Assembly (NCBI GenBank): GCA_018000455.1
Contig: JAGNJW010000001.1
Coordinates: forward strand, 186,001-250,000
DNA: 64,000 bases
Source of the DNA: Acidobacteriota bacterium
Lineage (GTDB): Bacteria > Acidobacteriota > Vicinamibacteria > Vicinamibacterales > UBA2999
Direction of reading: 5' to 3'
The notes under the pieces are model-generated. The model was not told the DNA's origin. It ran no database searches and was given only the letters and a program-made list of their open reading frames with translations. Shown piece after piece: positions 15,400-23,941 of the stretch (positions are counted from its first letter, which is position 1; the number at the start of each line of letters is the position of its first letter). Made by a program: the position numbers and the translations under genes.

Positions 15400-17112
15400 T
15401 CAGTCGTGACCGGCCGGCACTTCGAAGTCGTACTGCCACTGCCGATGGCTCTCGGCCGAGAAGCACACGCCGAAACCGTCCACGACCGTGCACGACGGCA
15501 CGTGTGGTGCGCCGGGGGGCACGAGCGTGGGCAGCAGATCCGGCCGCACCACGTAGAGCGTCCCGGGCGTGGCGAGACCGTCGCGGATCTCCTGCTGCAG
15601 CTCTGCGCAATACGCCGCCGCGCGCCGCGCATCGTGACGCGAGGCGCCGCCGGCGTTCACAGCCAGGCCGTAGCGTCCGGCCACCAGCGCGAAGGCACGA
15701 TAGTCGATGGCGCCGTCGCGATCGCAGAGGTTCGATGGAACGAGGACGATGCGCTCGTAGTGGGGCGGGACGACGCTCCAGAACCGGCTCGCCAGTGGAT
15801 TCCGCAACCCATAGTCGCCGGCGCTGTGCACGTCGCGTGACATGCCGGCGACGTCGGCGGCCTGCACGGCCACGGCAAGGCCCAGGAGCGCCAGCGCCGT
15901 GCGCGGCGTGAAGCGGGTGGCCGCGAACGCGATAGCGGCGACGATCGCGTAGTGGAGCGCCCAGATCATCCGTCCGTTGCTGCGGAACGCGACGAGTGGC
16001 CCCCACCACCGGCTGTCGTAGGTCGCGAGCGTATATGGTCCAGCGGTGACCACCGGGCCGACGGCCATTGCGGCCATGAAAAGCAGCCCGGCCACGAGCG
16101 GCAGGTGCGGCCGAATCGCGATCCACCAGGCAGCCGGGCGCGGCGACGCGAGGCCCGATCCGACGACGATGGCGCCGAGCAACAGGGTTCCCGCGCCCAG
16201 GTACGAGTAGCCTTCGTACTGCAACGGGCTGGCGTAGCGAATGAGGCCGGGCGCCAGCAGGCTCCGGCTCTCGGCGGGCATGATGAAGGTGAGCAGGTTG
16301 GCGGAATAGGCGCCGAATCCGCCGATGGTCAGTCCGTCGCCCGGCACCATCAGGCTGCCCGATTGCCAGAGCGCCACCCACACCGCAGCGAGCGCGAGCG
16401 AGCCGTGCAGGGCGATCGTGAGCACCTGCCGCGGCGCGGCCAAGACCTGGCGAAGGCTGATGGCGCCTCTCATCGTGAGCACCATCGGTAGTAGGTAGGG
16501 CTGCACCGCGGCGGTCACCGCCGCCAGCCCTGCCCACGCGATGGCGCGTCGCAGCGATACCTGATGGGCATCAGCTTTCAAGGCGAGCCACAAGCCTGCC
16601 AGCAGCAGCCAATGCGCCGTGAGAGCCGGGTGGCCGAACCGAAGGATGAGCGGAGGGCTGAGCACGAAGAGCAGCGCGCCGAGCCACTGCAGCACCGGCC
16701 GCGGCGTGGCCAGCTGCATCAGCAGCGCGCCGAACACCCCTTGCAGCGCGGCCGACAGCACCAGCCACATCCCGATGAACTGAAACACCGCCGGCAGCAG
16801 CGGGTCGAGCAGCTTGAAGAACACCGAGGCGATCGGAATCGAATCGGTCAGCCCCACCGAGCCGCCCATGGGCCACATCAGATGCGGCGTCGCGCCAAGC
16901 GGCAGCGTCCAGGGGCCGGTGCGGAAGAGATGCCAGCCGAAGAAGTGCACGCTGAAGTCGCCGCGCATCAGCCACTCGACGTTCAGCGGGTAGACCAGCG
17001 CGGGCCCGAGCGCGGCCGTCATCATCACCGCCCCGCAGACCCCGGCGATCGCCGGCACGAGCGGGTCGTGCCGGCCGGGCGGGCTCACGCGCACTGCGTC
17101 AGGGCTCGTCAT
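15400..17112 (-). CDS. DUF6311 multi-pass membrane protein, 570 aa
   Basis: An integral membrane protein with about 11-12 hydrophobic segments and a C-terminal extracytoplasmic domain from about residue 430. The N-terminal loop after TM1, HFFGWHLFRTGPWTLPLG followed by a Trp/Pro-rich block with SVGLTDSIPIASVFFKLL, is the signature region of DUF6311, a family with the architecture of polytopic GT-C-like glycosyltransferases. Acidic residues in the first large loop would be the place to look for catalysis, but no enzymatic activity is established. Its start codon lies 12 bases beyond the end of a broken peptidase gene on the same strand, so it may be transcribed from that gene's old promoter. 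Confidence 0.85.
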   Translation of the reverse strand: MTSPDAVRVSPPGRHDPLVPAIAGVCGAVMMTAALGPALVYPLNVEWLMRGDFSVHFFGWHLFRTGPWTLPLGATPHLMWPMGGSVGLTDSIPIASVFFKLLDPLLPAVFQFIGMWLVLSAALQGVFGALLMQLATPRPVLQWLGALLFVLSPPLILRFGHPALTAHWLLLAGLWLALKADAHQVSLRRAIAWAGLAAVTAAVQPYLLPMVLTMRGAISLRQVLAAPRQVLTIALHGSLALAAVWVALWQSGSLMVPGDGLTIGGFGAYSANLLTFIMPAESRSLLAPGLIRYASPLQYEGYSYLGAGTLLLGAIVVGSGLASPRPAAWWIAIRPHLPLVAGLLFMAAMAVGPVVTAGPYTLATYDSRWWGPLVAFRSNGRMIWALHYAIVAAIAFAATRFTPRTALALLGLAVAVQAADVAGMSRDVHSAGDYGLRNPLASRFWSVVPPHYERIVLVPSNLCDRDGAIDYRAFALVAGRYGLAVNAGGASRHDARRAAAYCAELQQEIRDGLATPGTLYVVRPDLLPTLVPPGAPHVPSCTVVDGFGVCFSAESHRQWQYDFEVPAGHD

Positions 17113-17124
17113 CCACGGCGGGCG

Positions 17125-17620
17125 CTATTGCCGGATCGTCGTCGTGCCGTGCCGCTCGTTGTTGAAGCGAATCATCGCCCAGGGCAGGTTCTCGAAGTTG
17201 TAGTACCAGGTCGGACCGTCGCGACCCGGGCGCTTCCTCCACGTGCGTGACCTGCGAGACGGCGCCCTCGGCATCCATGTAGCACACGAAGGTCTGCGAG
17301 CCCTTGGGCGTGCCGTCCGCCGTGGACGCGACGCGGTCGCCACTGCGTGACCAGCGCGCGTTGCCGCCGCGCGCGAGGAAACGGTGCTTCGAGCGATCGG
17401 CGTTCATGATCCACAGCGACGAGTCGCGCTTGTCGTTCAGCTTGTCGAAGCCCTGCCGCGTGTAGACGATCTGCGAGCCGTCAGGCGACGCTTGCGGGTC
17501 GGCGACTGTTTCGTACTCCCAGTAGAGGTCGAGCGTCAGCCGGTCGGCCGCGGGTGCCTGGCCCAGGAGAACGGCGGGAGCCATGGCGAGAACGAACGCC
17601 GCGATTGCGCCACGGAGCAT
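17125..17620 (-). pseudogene. Truncated S9-type peptidase fragment
   Basis: The 5' end encodes a signal peptide (MLRGAIAAFVLAMAPAVLLG) and about 100 residues of a TolB/WD40-like propeller as found at the N-terminus of S9 (prolyl oligopeptidase/acylaminoacyl-peptidase) enzymes: DPQASPDGSQIVYTRQ, SSLWIMNADRSKHRFLARGG, ARWSRSGDRVAS. After THVEEAPGSR, near 17225, the sensible frame changes and only WYYNFENLPWAMIRFNNERH followed by seven residues is read before the stop at 17125-17127. The latter is unlike an S9 C-terminus and I do not recognise it. The whole catalytic alpha/beta-hydrolase domain (roughly 500 residues) is missing. This is most simply a deletion that joined the 5' part of a peptidase gene to the 3' end of another gene. 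Confidence 0.7.
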
Positions 17621-17666: not shown

Positions 17667-18644
17667 TCAGCGCTTCTCGCGTGCCTGCACGCCGCGCACG
17701 GCGCCGGCGATCATCCGATTGAGCGCGGCAATCGACAGTCCCCCTTCGTCGGTGGGTGGAATGGTCGCAAAGCCGATGGCCGAAGCTTTGGGATAGCGCT
17801 TGAAGATCTGCTCGAAGAGCGCCGCCAGCTCCTCGCTCGACGGTCCGCCTGGCACCTTGTTGCCATGGGCCATCACCTCCCGCGGGTTGAGCACGTCCAT
17901 GTCGATGTGCACGTAGATCTTGTCGGTGAGACGGTTCAGGCGGTCGAGCTGCGCCCATACGGCAGGCGTCATCTGCTGTAGATCCTCCACCGACACCTGT
18001 TCGATCTGGGAGTCGTCCAGCAGGCGCTGCTCGAGCGGGTCGGTGAGTCGCACGCCGCCCATCACGATGTGGCGGTCCGACAACGGCGGGTCGAGCTTGG
18101 CATCCCGCTGCAAGACCGGCAGCGCGCGCCCGGTGGCGATCGCCACCGGCATGCCGCCCATCGAGCCGCTGCGCGTGGTGTCCGGCGTATTGAAGTCCGG
18201 ATGCGCATCGAGCCACAGCATGCCAATCCTGATGGGCTCGCGCGTGGGCCCGGTCTTCTGCAGCCCCGAGACCATGCCTGGCATCGACGGACAGGTGGCA
18301 AACAAGCCCACCGTGAAGTAGCCGTCCTTCTCACTTTGGGCCACGAGGTCGGAATAGTGCCCGAGCGCCATGCCCAGCTTCTTCCACGTGCCGTATTCCG
18401 TCGCCTCATCGGCGGTGAGCGAAGATTGCGCCACGCGCACGGTCGCCCCAAGGTCGGCGAGCAGCTTCTGGACGCCGCCGTTGGCCATCGTGTCTGGCCC
18501 CTTCGACGTTCCGGTGGGAGAGTACGGCTGCAGGGCGAGCGTGACGCGCAGGGCGCCGTCGGCACCCGTGTACTTCTGCGCGAAGGCCGGCGCCGACGAC
18601 ACGACCGCGGTCGTCAGTAGAACAGTGAGCACTCGTATCGACAT
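17667..18644 (-). CDS. Secreted arginase/ureohydrolase-family protein, one metal ligand missing
   Basis: A 325-aa protein with an N-terminal signal peptide (MSIRVLTVLLTTAVVSSAPAFA), placing it in the periplasm or outside the cell, unusual for ureohydrolases. Two of the three Mn-site motifs are present: WLDAHPDFN (D146, H148, D150) and HIDMDVLNP (D248, D250), corresponding to DAHxD and SxDxDxxDP. Where arginases have GGDHS with the first metal-binding His, this protein reads TVGLFATCPSMPGMV (111-125), so that His is absent and a Cys (C118) lies nearby. Either the binuclear site is altered or the protein has a different activity. The gene is separate from the neighbouring broken peptidase, and the substrate is unknown. 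Confidence 0.82.
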   Translation of the reverse strand: MSIRVLTVLLTTAVVSSAPAFAQKYTGADGALRVTLALQPYSPTGTSKGPDTMANGGVQKLLADLGATVRVAQSSLTADEATEYGTWKKLGMALGHYSDLVAQSEKDGYFTVGLFATCPSMPGMVSGLQKTGPTREPIRIGMLWLDAHPDFNTPDTTRSGSMGGMPVAIATGRALPVLQRDAKLDPPLSDRHIVMGGVRLTDPLEQRLLDDSQIEQVSVEDLQQMTPAVWAQLDRLNRLTDKIYVHIDMDVLNPREVMAHGNKVPGGPSSEELAALFEQIFKRYPKASAIGFATIPPTDEGGLSIAALNRMIAGAVRGVQAREKR

Positions 18645-19007: not shown

Positions 19008-22000
19008 ATGAGTCCTCGCTCTACCTTGTCCACGTCGCGCAAGACCCGTTCGGTGCCCCGCAGCGCCCCGCGAGGCAGCATGCGTTGGTCCGCTGGCTGG
19101 CTCACGGGTGCAGCCGCGTTGATCGTCGTTCTCGCCGCTACGGTCGCGCCGCAAGCGCAGAGCCACGGCAAGAACCGCGGACCCCAGCGCCGTGGCGCGC
19201 ATGTCGACCGCGTCTTGTCGGAGCGCCTGGACAAGGGCGACCCGACCATGCGTGAGCGCGTCATCGTGACGTTCAAGCCCGGCGCCAAGGCCCGTAAGCT
19301 GCAGCAGCTGCGCGCGCTCGGCGTCAGGATCGATCGCGACTTCGGCGTCATCGAGGCCATGGCGGCCGAGATGCCGCGTGGCTTGCTACGCGAGCTCGCC
19401 GACCAGGACGACGTGGCGTCGGTCTCGGTGGACGCGAAGGTCACGGCGATGCAGTCGATGCCTACGCCGGGCGCGACCTTCACCGTCACGAGCACCGCCA
19501 ACTCCGGCGCCGGCACGCTCCGCCAGGCGATTCTCGATGCCAACGCCCGACCCGGGTACGACGCGATTGTTTTCAACATCTCGGGCAGCGGCGTCCGCAC
19601 GATCTCGCCAACGTCCCCCCTTCCTGGCATCTGGAGCCCCGTCCTCCTCGACGGCTGGAGTCAGCCGGGATTCACGAGCACGCCGCTCATTCAGTTGAAC
19701 GGCACGAATGCCGGGGCCAGCGCCGAGGGGCTCGCGTTCTGGTCGGGCTCCGACGGCAGCACGGTGCGCGGGTTCGTGATCAACCGTTTCGATGGCCGCG
19801 GCATCGAGTCGTGGCAGGTCAACAACCTGACCGTCCAGGGCAACTGGGTCGGCCTGAGCAGCAACGGGTTGTCAGCCTCGCCGAACAATGAAAACGGGGT
19901 GTATCTGGGCCGCGGCACCGGACATGTCGTGGGCGGCACGGGCGCCAACCAGCGCAATGTGCTGTCGGGCAATGCGCAGCGTGGACTGGTGTTCGATCGC
20001 GTCAGCAACAGCACCGTCGTCGGCAACTACGTCGGCACCGACGTCCAGGGCGTGAACGACGTCAACGGCACCGTCACCAACTACGCCCAGTCGGGCATGG
20101 TGCTGTGGGGCGACTCGACGAACAATGTCATCGGTGGCACGACGCCCGCCGAGCGCAACGTCTTCTCCGGCAACAACCACTACGGCCTCGAGTTCGCCGC
20201 CCCGGGGGTCGTTAACAACGTGGCGCGCGGCAACTACTTCGGCGTATCCAGCACCGGCAGCTCGGCGCTGCCAAACAAGAGCGGCGGCGCGTCGTACTGG
20301 GGCGCCGGTCCTGGAAACGTCGTCGGCGGCACGGCACCAGGTGCGGGCAATGTGCTCTCTGGAAACCTCGGGCACGGCGTCTACGTGGGCAACTTCACTA
20401 CCGGCGCCATCATCCAGGGCAACAACATCGGCATGAACGCGGGGCGTACGGCCTCGCTCGGCAACGCTTGGGAAGGGGTGTTCTTCGACCAGTCGTCGAA
20501 CGGTCTGGTCGGCGGCACGGCTCCCGGCGCCGGCAACACGATTGTTGGAAGTGGCCTCGCCGGCGTGGCCGTCGTGGGCGGCACGGGCAACGCCGTCCTC
20601 GGCAACTCGTCGAGCGGCAACGGCGGCATGGGCGTGGACCTCGACGGCTGGGGCCCGACGAGCAACGACACCTTGGATCCGGATTCCGGCGGCAACAACC
20701 TGCAGAACAAGCCGGTCGTGACCAAGGCCGTGACCACCGGCAACCTGGTGGAAGTGACGGGCTCGCTCAACAGCACGGCGAACAGCTACTTCCGCGTCGA
20801 GCTCTTCGCGAGCACCGCGCTCGGAAGCTCCGGCCACAGCGACGGACAGACCTTCCTGGGCGCCGCCAACGTCACGACCAACAGCAGCGGCAACGCCAGC
20901 TTCACCACCACGCTCGCCGCACCGGTGGCGTTCGGACAGTTCGTGACGGCCACGGCCACCAAGACGACCAGTGGCTTTGCGACCTTTACCGACACCTCGG
21001 AGTTCAGCAGCGCCGTCACGGCGACGCTGGCGCCCTACAGCTTGCGGACCACGCTGGCGCTGGATGCGCCGATCGGTTCCGCTGCGATGACGACACGCAC
21101 GGGCACCGGAGTAACCATTGCGGTGATCGACTCGGGTGTGTTGCTCGATGGCGGCAGCGCGTCGCGCATCAAGACCACCCGCGACTTCACGACGGGCAGC
21201 ACCAATCCGGCGCACATCTTGCCACTCGACCCCCACGGACACGGCACGCACGTAGCCGGGTTGATGGGCAGTAGCCAAGCCGACTACAAGGGCGTGGCCC
21301 CGAATGTGAGCTACGTGAGCCTGCGGGTGTTGAACTCGCTCGGCGCCGGCTCGACCAGCAGCGTCATCAACGCCGTGCAGTGGGCCGTGGCCAATCGGGT
21401 GGCCTACGGCATCGGCGTCATCAACCTTTCGCTGGGCCATCCGATCTACGAGCCGGCGGCCACCGATCCGCTCGTGCAGGCGGTCGAGGCGGCGGTGCGC
21501 GCCGGCATCGTGGTGGTGACGTCGGCGGGCAACTACGGTACCAACCCGGTGACCGGCCAGGTCGGCTACGCGGGCATCAGCTCGCCCGGCAACGCCCCCT
21601 CCGCCATCACCGTCGGGGCCCTGCGCACCCAGGACACGACAGGGCGCTCGGACGACCGCATGGCCGAATACAGCTCGCGAGGGCCCACGTGGTTCGACGG
21701 CTTCGCCAAGCCCGACGTCATTGCGCCTGGCCACCGCCTGCTCGGACCGGCCAACATCACACAAACGCTCTACACGCTGTACCCGTCGGCCCGCACCACC
21801 GTGGGCGGGCGTCCCTACCTGCGCCTGAGTGGCACGAGCATGGCGTCGGCCGTGGTGGCCGGCACCGTGGCGCTGGTGCTCGAGCAATCGAAGAGCACCT
21901 TCGGCGCGGTGCTGCCGCCCAACGCGGTGAAGGCGCTCCTGCAGCACACGGCTTTCCCGATGCGCGACGACCAGTCGGCGCCGTACCACGGGCTCGCCCA

Positions 22001-22430
22001 GGGCGCCGGGGCACTGAACCCGATGGGCGCGATGAGTTTGGCCGCCGTCCTCAACCCCACCGTGCCAGTCGGCAGTTCGTGGCTGGTGTCGGGCGTGACG
22101 CCGTCGACGACCGTGGACGGGCAGAACATCGTGTGGGGCGAAAACATCGTCTGGGGCGAGAACATCGTCTGGGGCGAAGCCGTTTACACGAACCGCGCAG
22201 CCTGGGCGAACAACGTCGTCTGGGGCGAGAACATCGTGTGGGGCCAGAACATCGTCTGGGGCAGCAACATCGTCTGGGGCCAGAACATCGTCTGGGGCAA
22301 CAACATCGTCTGGGGGAACAACATCGTCTGGGGCGAGAACATCGTCTGGGGTGAAAACATCGTCTGGGGCGCGAACATCGTGTGGGGGAACAACATCGTG
22401 TGGGGCGAAATCCTCGGGGGGCAGCCATGA
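19008..22430 (+). CDS. Chimeric secreted subtilase: propeptide, beta-helix, S8 protease, NIVWG repeats (1140 aa)
   Basis: Domains in order: signal peptide about 25-52; I9-like propeptide about 80-145 (RERVIVTFKPG); right-handed beta-helix about 158-570, opening with GTLRQAILDAN and carrying at least four [VIL]xGGTxxxxxN turns such as NVVGGTAPGAGNVLSGN; a linker beta-sandwich; subtilisin domain about 690-1010 with triad D708 (VIDSG), H745 (HGHGTHVAG) and S944 (GTSMASAVVAG) and oxyanion Asn in SAGN; then 14 xNIVWG hexapeptides at 1039-1133. The beta-helix thus sits between the propeptide and the protease, an unusual position. ATG 19008 is used for numbering; ATG 19080, with GAGG before it and directly starting the signal sequence, is an equally good start. 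Substrate unknown; the beta-helix suggests binding to polysaccharide or a surface. A GNAT gene follows 34 bp downstream. Confidence 0.92.
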   Translation: MSPRSTLSTSRKTRSVPRSAPRGSMRWSAGWLTGAAALIVVLAATVAPQAQSHGKNRGPQRRGAHVDRVLSERLDKGDPTMRERVIVTFKPGAKARKLQQLRALGVRIDRDFGVIEAMAAEMPRGLLRELADQDDVASVSVDAKVTAMQSMPTPGATFTVTSTANSGAGTLRQAILDANARPGYDAIVFNISGSGVRTISPTSPLPGIWSPVLLDGWSQPGFTSTPLIQLNGTNAGASAEGLAFWSGSDGSTVRGFVINRFDGRGIESWQVNNLTVQGNWVGLSSNGLSASPNNENGVYLGRGTGHVVGGTGANQRNVLSGNAQRGLVFDRVSNSTVVGNYVGTDVQGVNDVNGTVTNYAQSGMVLWGDSTNNVIGGTTPAERNVFSGNNHYGLEFAAPGVVNNVARGNYFGVSSTGSSALPNKSGGASYWGAGPGNVVGGTAPGAGNVLSGNLGHGVYVGNFTTGAIIQGNNIGMNAGRTASLGNAWEGVFFDQSSNGLVGGTAPGAGNTIVGSGLAGVAVVGGTGNAVLGNSSSGNGGMGVDLDGWGPTSNDTLDPDSGGNNLQNKPVVTKAVTTGNLVEVTGSLNSTANSYFRVELFASTALGSSGHSDGQTFLGAANVTTNSSGNASFTTTLAAPVAFGQFVTATATKTTSGFATFTDTSEFSSAVTATLAPYSLRTTLALDAPIGSAAMTTRTGTGVTIAVIDSGVLLDGGSASRIKTTRDFTTGSTNPAHILPLDPHGHGTHVAGLMGSSQADYKGVAPNVSYVSLRVLNSLGAGSTSSVINAVQWAVANRVAYGIGVINLSLGHPIYEPAATDPLVQAVEAAVRAGIVVVTSAGNYGTNPVTGQVGYAGISSPGNAPSAITVGALRTQDTTGRSDDRMAEYSSRGPTWFDGFAKPDVIAPGHRLLGPANITQTLYTLYPSARTTVGGRPYLRLSGTSMASAVVAGTVALVLEQSKSTFGAVLPPNAVKALLQHTAFPMRDDQSAPYHGLAQGAGALNPMGAMSLAAVLNPTVPVGSSWLVSGVTPSTTVDGQNIVWGENIVWGENIVWGEAVYTNRAAWANNVVWGENIVWGQNIVWGSNIVWGQNIVWGNNIVWGNNIVWGENIVWGENIVWGANIVWGNNIVWGEILGGQP
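22122..22406 (+). repeat. 18-bp coding tandem repeat (14 xNIVWG hexapeptides)
   Basis: Fourteen copies of an 18-bp unit encoding x-N-(I/V)-V-W-G, where x is E, Q, N, S or A, arranged as three copies, an 11-residue interruption (EAVYTNRAAWA) and eleven copies. The interruption breaks the six-residue register by one. Units differ at synonymous positions (GTG/GTC, GGC/GGG), so the array is not a fresh expansion. It forms the extreme C-terminus of the subtilase. Confidence 0.95.
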
Positions 22431-22464: not shown

Positions 22465-23136
22465 ATGGAGATGATGCCCTACCACCCCACTACGAGCCGT
22501 GACGCGCGCGAGCACGCCTGCTCCAGCGTCACCCTCCCGAGTGCGGACATCCTCGCCGACTGGCGTGAGGGGCTGCCGGTGCTCCGCGGCGCCGGCTGCA
22601 CCTTGCGCGAGCTGACGGCCGCCGACGCGGGGTCGCTCGTGGCGCACCTGACGACCGAAGAGGTGAGCCGGTTCGTGTCGCCGCCGCCGTCGAGCGTTCC
22701 GGCGTTCGAGCGGTTCATCGCGTGGACCCATGCGGAGCGCGCGGCAGGCCGCTATGCGTGCTTTGCGGTGGTGCCCGAGGGCGCGACCCTGGCCGTGGGC
22801 CTGCTGCAGATCCGCCTCCTCGAGGCCCAGGCCGGCACGGCCGAATGGGGCTTCATCCTCGGGTCGGCCTACTGGGGCACGGGCTTGTTCATCGACAGCG
22901 CTCAGCGAGTCGTCGACTTCGCCTTTGCGCACATGGGCCTGCACCGCTTGGAGGCGCGCGCGGCCGTCAAGAACGGCCGCGGGAACGGCGCGCTCTTGAA
23001 GCTCGGCGCCGTGCGCGAAGCCACCCTGCGCCAATCCTTCGTGCGTCACGGCGAGCGGCTCGACCAGGTGCTCTGGGCGATCTTGCGTGACGACTGGCGG
23101 ATGAGGATCCTGCCGCGCACCCACTCCGTGCACTGA
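22465..23136 (+). CDS. GNAT-family N-acetyltransferase (RimJ/RimL-like)
   Basis: A 223-aa acetyl-CoA-dependent acyltransferase. The fold is recognisable from LRELTAADAGSLVAHLT at the start, AEWGFILGSAYWGTGLFIDS for the beta4/acetyl-CoA loop, and HRLEARAAVKNGRGNGALLK, where the RGNG segment matches the N-x-x-S pyrophosphate-binding turn used by RimL-type enzymes, with Gly for Ser. About 35 residues precede the domain. It follows the subtilase by 34 bp on the same strand and is probably in the same transcript, but what it acetylates is unknown. Confidence 0.88.
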   Translation: MEMMPYHPTTSRDAREHACSSVTLPSADILADWREGLPVLRGAGCTLRELTAADAGSLVAHLTTEEVSRFVSPPPSSVPAFERFIAWTHAERAAGRYACFAVVPEGATLAVGLLQIRLLEAQAGTAEWGFILGSAYWGTGLFIDSAQRVVDFAFAHMGLHRLEARAAVKNGRGNGALLKLGAVREATLRQSFVRHGERLDQVLWAILRDDWRMRILPRTHSVH

Positions 23137-23175: not shown

Positions 23176-23730
23176 CTACTTCCTGCGTGCGGCCGCGTAG
23201 GCCTTGGCCCAGTTGAGTGCTGGCGAGGTCGGCTCGTCGTACGACTGCAGGGCTTCAGTCCACGCGCGCGGTCCGTCCCAGCCGTCGACGACGACGCGTT
23301 TGATCATCCACATCGCCGCAGCGCGGCCGCCCCCGGCGCAGTGCACGAAGATGGGCTGATTGGCGGCATCGCTCGTGACACGCAGGAATTCCCGTACGGT
23401 CGGCTCGACGTCGTCGGCGGGCGACGCGGGTGTGTTGAAAGGCAAATGCACGTAGCGCAGGCCGGCCGCGGCCGCCGCCGCCCTTTCGGCCTCGAGATCG
23501 GCACCCTCCTCGCTCGCCATGCGGAGATTGACGACGGTCTTGAAACCCATCGCCTTGAGTCCCGCGACGGCCGACGGCGTGGTGGCGCCGGCGCAGGCCA
23601 TCGTCACATCCACCTGCGTGAAGTTGGTCACGCCCTCGACCGGCGTCTTCACCGGCTGCGCGCCGGCAAGCGACGCGGCCACTGTCAGGCCCGCGACCGT
23701 TGTGGCGAGCACGTGCCGGCCGATGTTCAT
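23176..23730 (-). CDS. Secreted protein-tyrosine-phosphatase-like protein (DUF442/BLH-type)
   Basis: 184 aa with a signal peptide (MNIGRHVLATTVAGLTVAASLAGA), so extracytoplasmic. The core carries GFKTVVNLRMASEEG and a C-x4-R active-site loop, HCAGGGRAAAMW. That is one residue shorter than classical HCx5R phosphatases and is the form found in the DUF442/beta-lactamase-hydrolase-like and DSP-like families, whose substrates are mostly unknown. The start at ATG 23730 was chosen because the signal peptide begins there; the open frame extends further upstream without homology. It is convergent with the GNAT gene. Confidence 0.85.
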   Translation of the reverse strand: MNIGRHVLATTVAGLTVAASLAGAQPVKTPVEGVTNFTQVDVTMACAGATTPSAVAGLKAMGFKTVVNLRMASEEGADLEAERAAAAAAGLRYVHLPFNTPASPADDVEPTVREFLRVTSDAANQPIFVHCAGGGRAAAMWMIKRVVVDGWDGPRAWTEALQSYDEPTSPALNWAKAYAAARRK

Positions 23731-23941
23731 AGGGCGGATGCTACTACACGGCCGTTCCGAGCGGGAGGTCAGCCCTCGCCCATGCGTCGCCGAACGCGAG
23801 CCCGCAGTGGGCCACCATGCCGCCGGGCATATCGAGGCGCAGCCGCAGCGTCGCACCAAGCACTGCCTGGCAGCATGGGACCGCCGCCTCGGCGCCGTGC
23901 CTGCGATTGACGCGCCCGCACGACAGGGCTAGAGTGCGCGC

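Follow-up and report, generated by a model that had tools for sequence, protein, structure and literature searches.

In the 64,000-nucleotide stretch of Acidobacteriota DNA analysed here (the window), one gene appears to encode a subtilase with a beta-helix set between its propeptide and its protease, which raises the question of whether this arrangement is genuine and what becomes of the helix once the propeptide is removed. The preliminary description, which noticed the arrangement, suggested that the helix would be released with the propeptide, or hold it, and that the enzyme might be activated on contact with a polysaccharide or surface.

Domain layout of the subtilase

Positions 19008-22430 (+) form a single open frame of 1140 residues with zero internal stops, and a chance frame is ruled out by homology and fold. 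An ATG at 19008 extends the N-terminus by 24 residues, ahead of a signal peptide, which is followed by an I9-like propeptide, a right-handed beta-helix, an Ig-like cap, an S8 domain and a NIVWGx tail. The uninterrupted frame, the structural models and the homologues thus bear out a 1140-residue protein with the order propeptide, beta-helix, S8 and tail, as first described. The features are as follows:

19080-19163 (+), signal peptide, residues 25-52; hydrophobic MRWSAGWLTGAAALIVVLAATVAPQAQS, aligning with the N-termini of sister proteins
19191-19451 (+), I9-like propeptide, residues ~62-148; homology to sisters L063 and L064, and the model of sister L014
19473-20642 (+), right-handed parallel beta-helix, residues ~156-545; AlphaFold2, Foldseek and related Acidobacteria modules
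20703-20981 (+), Ig-like beta-sandwich at the end of the helix module, residues ~566-658; six predicted strands
21030-21065 (+), N-terminal segment of the catalytic domain, APYSLRTTLALD, residues 675-686; kept in all clade members
21102-22043 (+), Peptidase_S8 catalytic domain with D708, H745 and S944; Pfam, motifs and PDB relatives
22122-22418 (+), C-terminal NIVWGx hexapeptide repeats, 14 NIVWG/NVVWG units; from sequence
22465-23136 (+), GNAT acetyltransferase (Acetyltransf_3), directly 3' of the subtilase; Pfam E 7.4e-21

The sole Pfam match of the protein is Peptidase_S8 (residues 699-989, E 5.4e-45, 154.4 bits against a cut-off of 21.8), and NCBIfam returned S8 families alone, every one far under its cut-off. 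Of the three families proposed for a domain search (Inhibitor_I9, Beta_helix and Peptidase_S8), only the last was therefore matched, because the propeptide and the helix score under the Pfam cut-offs. The catalytic triad lies in the usual motifs (DSG 708, HGTH 745, GTSMA 942-946), and 9ues and 3afg are PDB relatives of the domain, which is intact as originally reported.

The window protein has no Pfam match to Inhibitor_I9 at E up to 1, hence the label I9-like. Its sister L063 exceeds the Pfam I9 cut-off (22.6 vs 21.2 bits), L064 falls slightly under it, and in L014, which has no insert, the propeptide is modelled as beta-alpha-beta-beta-alpha-beta, docked on S8. For the window's own propeptide AlphaFold2 predicted the expected strand-helix order with modest confidence (pLDDT ~50-73), and homology points to an I9-like propeptide, in agreement with the first assignment. 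Modelling was divided, with the helix taken from the window protein and the propeptide-S8 unit from L014, because combined alignments misplaced either the helix rows or the propeptide rows; the full-length model gave no usable placement of S8, with pLDDT ~30-45 across much of this domain, where the alignment is shallow.

The beta-helix, modelled by AlphaFold2 from the window protein and helix-module relatives, reached a pLDDT of mostly 95-98, so that structure prediction, the check by which the fold might have failed, upheld it. It carries a TLRQAI N-cap and rungs of the kinds NxIGG, NVxSGN and GNYIG. Against solved right-handed beta-helices, Foldseek placed it near DHS dehydratase (8wm1, 8.3e-15), AlgE4 (2pyg, 1.4e-6), alginate epimerase/lyase, VexL and tailspike depolymerases, matches that stand at the level of fold, with identities of ~11-15% to those enzymes and 19% to the best match, 8wm1. 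Up to E 1, no Pfam beta-helix model matched, and the assignment therefore concerns the fold and not the Pfam Beta_helix family; sequence relatives of the helix in the PDB were absent at E 0.01. The length of about 400 helix residues given at first holds approximately, though the helical part covers ~390 and is followed by an Ig-like domain of ~95 residues (pLDDT ~59-82) that had not been separated from it. A block LQNxP...DTSEFS also stands behind the helix in otherwise unrelated beta-helix proteins, and among the matches listed the module is ~40% identical to modules of other Acidobacteria proteins. Across ten aligned beta-helix modules the invariant columns are Gly, Asn, hydrophobic rung positions and one Arg, and Asp, Glu, His, Lys and Tyr are invariant nowhere, a pattern which would favour a scaffold or binding role over catalysis.

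At the C-terminus, the 14 units recur with a period of six and are modelled by AlphaFold, with low confidence, as 3-residue strands each six residues. The hexapeptide array noticed earlier is thus a true six-residue repeat, albeit of the NIVWGx type and without a Pfam hexapeptide match. The window protein ends in these WG repeats, and a C-terminal beta-barrel translocator is absent, with no such Pfam match. Tail repeats of six to ten residues are near-identical inside one protein and different across proteins (window 22122-22418; L004, L037, L054, L073 and others), with variants such as NIVWGE, DTLVWG, GIAWSD, NIVWST and TVIWGS; from their letters they look as if homogenised gene by gene.

Independent copy and rarity

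Another genome of the window's genus, uncultured Acidobacteria RBC068 (G013, CADEFD010000001.1), encodes a protein of the same domain order, 56% identical over residues 16-1139. Part by part, the two beta-helix subtilases share 66% identity in the propeptide, 44% in the helix, 52% in the Ig-like domain, 68% in S8 and 66% in the tail, and the downstream GNAT gene is the sole tested neighbour common to both loci. Misassembly, which the preliminary description had named as a possible source of the fusion, is ruled out by the identical order and the same downstream GNAT in this independent assembly. The placement of a beta-helix between propeptide and protease is confirmed.

The arrangement is rare. 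In sequence-based searches within one phylum, covering ~540 Acidobacteria genomes by handle count (family, order, class and a phylum sample), helix and protease occurred together in two proteins only among the matches listed, and the survey of homologues therefore added one further protein of the same order to that of the window. By comparison, WG-tail subtilases were found in 43 of the 43 genomes of the family, among the matches listed, and S8 matches in at least 123 of 162 genomes of the order; the helix module by itself was present in 21 of the 193 class genomes, where the frames that carry it are mainly 1000-3000 residues long. All fetched frames with both helix and S8 were copies of the two known proteins; the helix without S8 was seen in 53 frames, some of them redundant. 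A scan of genome contigs brought up, beside the relative already known, just two distant subtilases, and none of 451 matches in plasmid records spanned 80% of the query. Descriptions of a beta-helix between propeptide and subtilase, or of NIVWG, were not found in the open-access literature. A frame of 1275 residues in G031 was rejected as another case of a large insert, since its extra length is an upstream frame extension ahead of the normal start.

A clade with a filled junction

In a tree built from 60 S8 domains, the insert-bearing proteins all fall in one clade of nine (support 100), and eight of the nine members carry an insert between propeptide and protease. The members are distributed as follows:

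Beta-helix at the junction: the window protein and L011 (n=2)
Unnamed domain of ~200 residues at the junction: L002 (a paralogue in the window's genome), L012 and L063 (n=3)
DNRLRE/CBM96-like module at the junction: L016, L064 and the contig-cut L066 (n=3)
No insert at the junction: L014 (n=1)

L066, marked as having none in the tree, was rejected as insert-free, as it is cut by the contig end and starts inside a DNRLRE-like domain. The insert of L016 is a DNRLRE domain by NCBIfam (E 3.8e-12); of the two members scanned, L016 and L064, it alone passed the cut-off, L064 being unmatched. A domain ~30% identical to the DNRLRE members is the alginate-binding module CBM96, which has been solved (PMC9971899). 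The unnamed domain (L002:1072-1713, L012:919-1560, L063:2461-3102) is 41-54% identical among the three proteins, has zero Pfam or NCBIfam matches, and as an insert separates the protease core from the N-terminal helix.

The inserts do not share one position. The spacing from DAxV to LRxTL is 534-537 residues with the beta-helix vs 22-23 in members without it; LRxTL and the Asp strand are 18 residues apart when no insert is present, 25 with the beta-helix and 218-235 with the other two modules. The APYSLRTTLALD segment, a helix in the L014 model, accordingly divides an insertion site A before it from a site B after it: the beta-helix occupies site A, ahead of this N-terminal catalytic helix, and the other two kinds of module occupy site B behind it. 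With different insertion points, the junction has therefore been filled at least twice. Among helix modules the two protease-borne copies pair as sisters (support 99/96), and because they form a supported pair, a single gain of the beta-helix in a common ancestor of both proteins would be the simplest reading. The filling of this junction by the beta-helix and other modules across one clade is new here, and suggests that the site serves for docking exchangeable attachment modules, not as a trigger that departs with the propeptide.

Processing and fate of the beta-helix

Precursors of the I9-S8 kind are cut directly behind the last strand of the propeptide. The L014 model of propeptide and S8 (pLDDT 85.6, pTM 0.85) is closest in the PDB, with matches of ~420-460 columns that cover both parts, to the uncleaved precursors 3afg (ProN-Tk-SP), 3whi and 2e1p (pro-Tk-subtilisin). 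In prosubtilases the bond between propeptide and subtilase is cut in cis and the propeptide is then lost (PMC10580911). In the window protein the last propeptide strand and DAxV stand ~14 residues ahead of the helix, which would put the scissile bond near M148/Q149, between DAKVTAM and QSM and ~8 residues ahead of the helix.

Since the predicted cut precedes the helix, canonical autoprocessing would keep the helix on the protease, and the sister modules, lying behind the N-terminal catalytic helix, would be able to stay with the protease only. We consider it probable, with a fair degree of confidence, that the protein is a secreted I9-S8 zymogen with a surface module at the pro/mature junction, which loses its propeptide and retains the helix for targeting; of the fates open to the helix, retention on the protease after loss of the propeptide is the most likely. 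The propeptide would fold, inhibit S8 and be removed autocatalytically at its own C-terminus (~M148/Q149), and the beta-helix and Ig-like cap would stay on the mature enzyme as its N-terminal domain, tethering it to a glycan or surface, with the WG-repeat tail as a second, C-terminal structural element. Against this reading counts that a cut in cis would require the helix of ~390 residues to span from the active site to the N-terminus of S8. In the sisters, the DNRLRE/CBM96-like module or the unnamed domain would fill the same role behind the N-terminal catalytic helix. Surface recruitment would be the simplest role, requiring fewer assumptions than contact activation, and is favoured because one sister module is of the carbohydrate-binding kind and the helix diverges fast; divergence of the helix above that of propeptide, S8 and tail is as expected if it were the ligand-facing part.

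The release proposed at first, in which a cut ahead of the catalytic domain, between TATL and APYSLR, would set the helix free either together with the propeptide or as a fragment of its own, is disfavoured and in our judgement unlikely. The segment ATLAPY[S/T]LR is kept directly ahead of the catalytic domain in both beta-helix proteins and is predicted with low confidence, both of which would favour such a cut; by homology, however, the propeptide C-terminus should enter the active site a few residues past DAxV, ahead of the helix, so that a second cut at this segment would be required, and the sister modules behind the N-terminal catalytic helix cannot depart with the propeptide.

A sensor role, in which cleavage or release of the zymogen would wait until the helix has bound a polysaccharide or surface, we regard as decidedly improbable. 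The position of the helix between inhibitor and protease would suit such a role, as would the recurrence of beta-helix and CBM-like modules at the junction in one clade, but recruitment accounts for the same pattern and the insert-free L014, with its normal short linker, should process as usual. Somewhat more doubtful again is a fuller version, in which binding of a surface polysaccharide would reroute the propeptide-protease chain and license autoprocessing, with the clade swapping the sensor module per ligand; if such gating were true, the protease would be switched on just where it is docked.

Chances are slimmer still for a neutral fusion, the module being a passive spacer without selected function. 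Its occurrence in two of ~540 genomes only, among the matches listed, and its place as the fastest-diverging part of the protein would agree with this, but two genomes whose proteins are 56% identical have preserved the open frame and both junctions, and eight of the nine clade members have some module. Least probable of all is a bifunctional enzyme in which the beta-helix itself acts as polysaccharide lyase or epimerase, as its Foldseek neighbours (AlgE4, alginate epimerase/lyase, VexL, tailspike depolymerases) might suggest, and a catalytic helix was rejected, since those matches are at fold level, no PDB sequence relative appears at E 0.01, and the ten modules have no conserved active-site set, with one Arg as the sole invariant charged or Tyr residue.

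Neighbouring genes

A GNAT gene lies directly 3' of WG-tail subtilases in 29 of the 54 loci uncut by a contig end, with a gap of 0-114 bases (for example L008:10719-11351, and L011, L012, L016, L063 and others), and two such genes stand in tandem in L016, L020, L032 and L036. Asn opens the most frequent tail unit in 29/29 loci with the GNAT gene vs 8/25 without it (Fisher p 2e-8, uncorrected for shared ancestry). At 17099-17620 (-), a stretch of ~170 residues resembles the beginning of an S9-type peptidase, signal peptide included, and stops early; it may be what is left of a truncated or frameshifted gene. An arginase-family protein (17667-18644 (-), Pfam E 9e-21) has an apparent signal peptide, which is unusual in this normally cytosolic family, and 23176-23859 (-) encodes a protein phosphatase of the BLH/DSP kind, also with an apparent signal peptide.

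Comparison with known systems

Large modules between propeptide and subtilase are rare, and the members of the clade provide a natural comparison (no insert, beta-helix, DNRLRE/CBM96-like module, unnamed domain) with two insertion points, suited to testing how far I9-S8 proteins tolerate inserts at the cleavage junction and whether modules serve targeting or gating. The junction could take binding modules without the catalytic core being touched.

WG-tail subtilases of the same order share the propeptide, S8 and WG tail with the window protein, often with a GNAT directly downstream; nearly all of them have a short linker, while the only clade with large modules at this place is that of the window protein. 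The large Acidobacteria beta-helix proteins with TLRQAI-capped, IGGT-type modules (for example G089:C113, 1530 aa; G006:C7, 3156 aa) contain the same module from cap to Ig-like domain at ~40% identity but, unlike the window protein, no protease in any such frame. In mature Tk-subtilisin, IS1 is a short N-terminal insert that binds calcium. The Tk-SP and Tk-subtilisin precursors (3afg, 2e1p) and pro-subtilisin E (3whi) have an I9-like propeptide docked on S8, as modelled for the insert-free L014, and 3whi, by its title an unautoprocessed pro-subtilisin E with an IS1 insertion, indicates that the precursor tolerates an engineered insert; that insert is short and a WG tail is absent from these proteins, whereas the window protein holds a whole beta-helix and Ig module of ~500 residues. 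Like the window protein, the subtilase autotransporter Ssp of Serratia marcescens joins a subtilase and a right-handed beta-helix in one secreted protein, but the solved Ssp has its protease at the N-terminus, a short helix of seven turns at the C-terminus and a C-terminal translocator (PMC9977779), none of which is the layout of the window protein, and the placement of the helix is thus as unusual as the preliminary description held.
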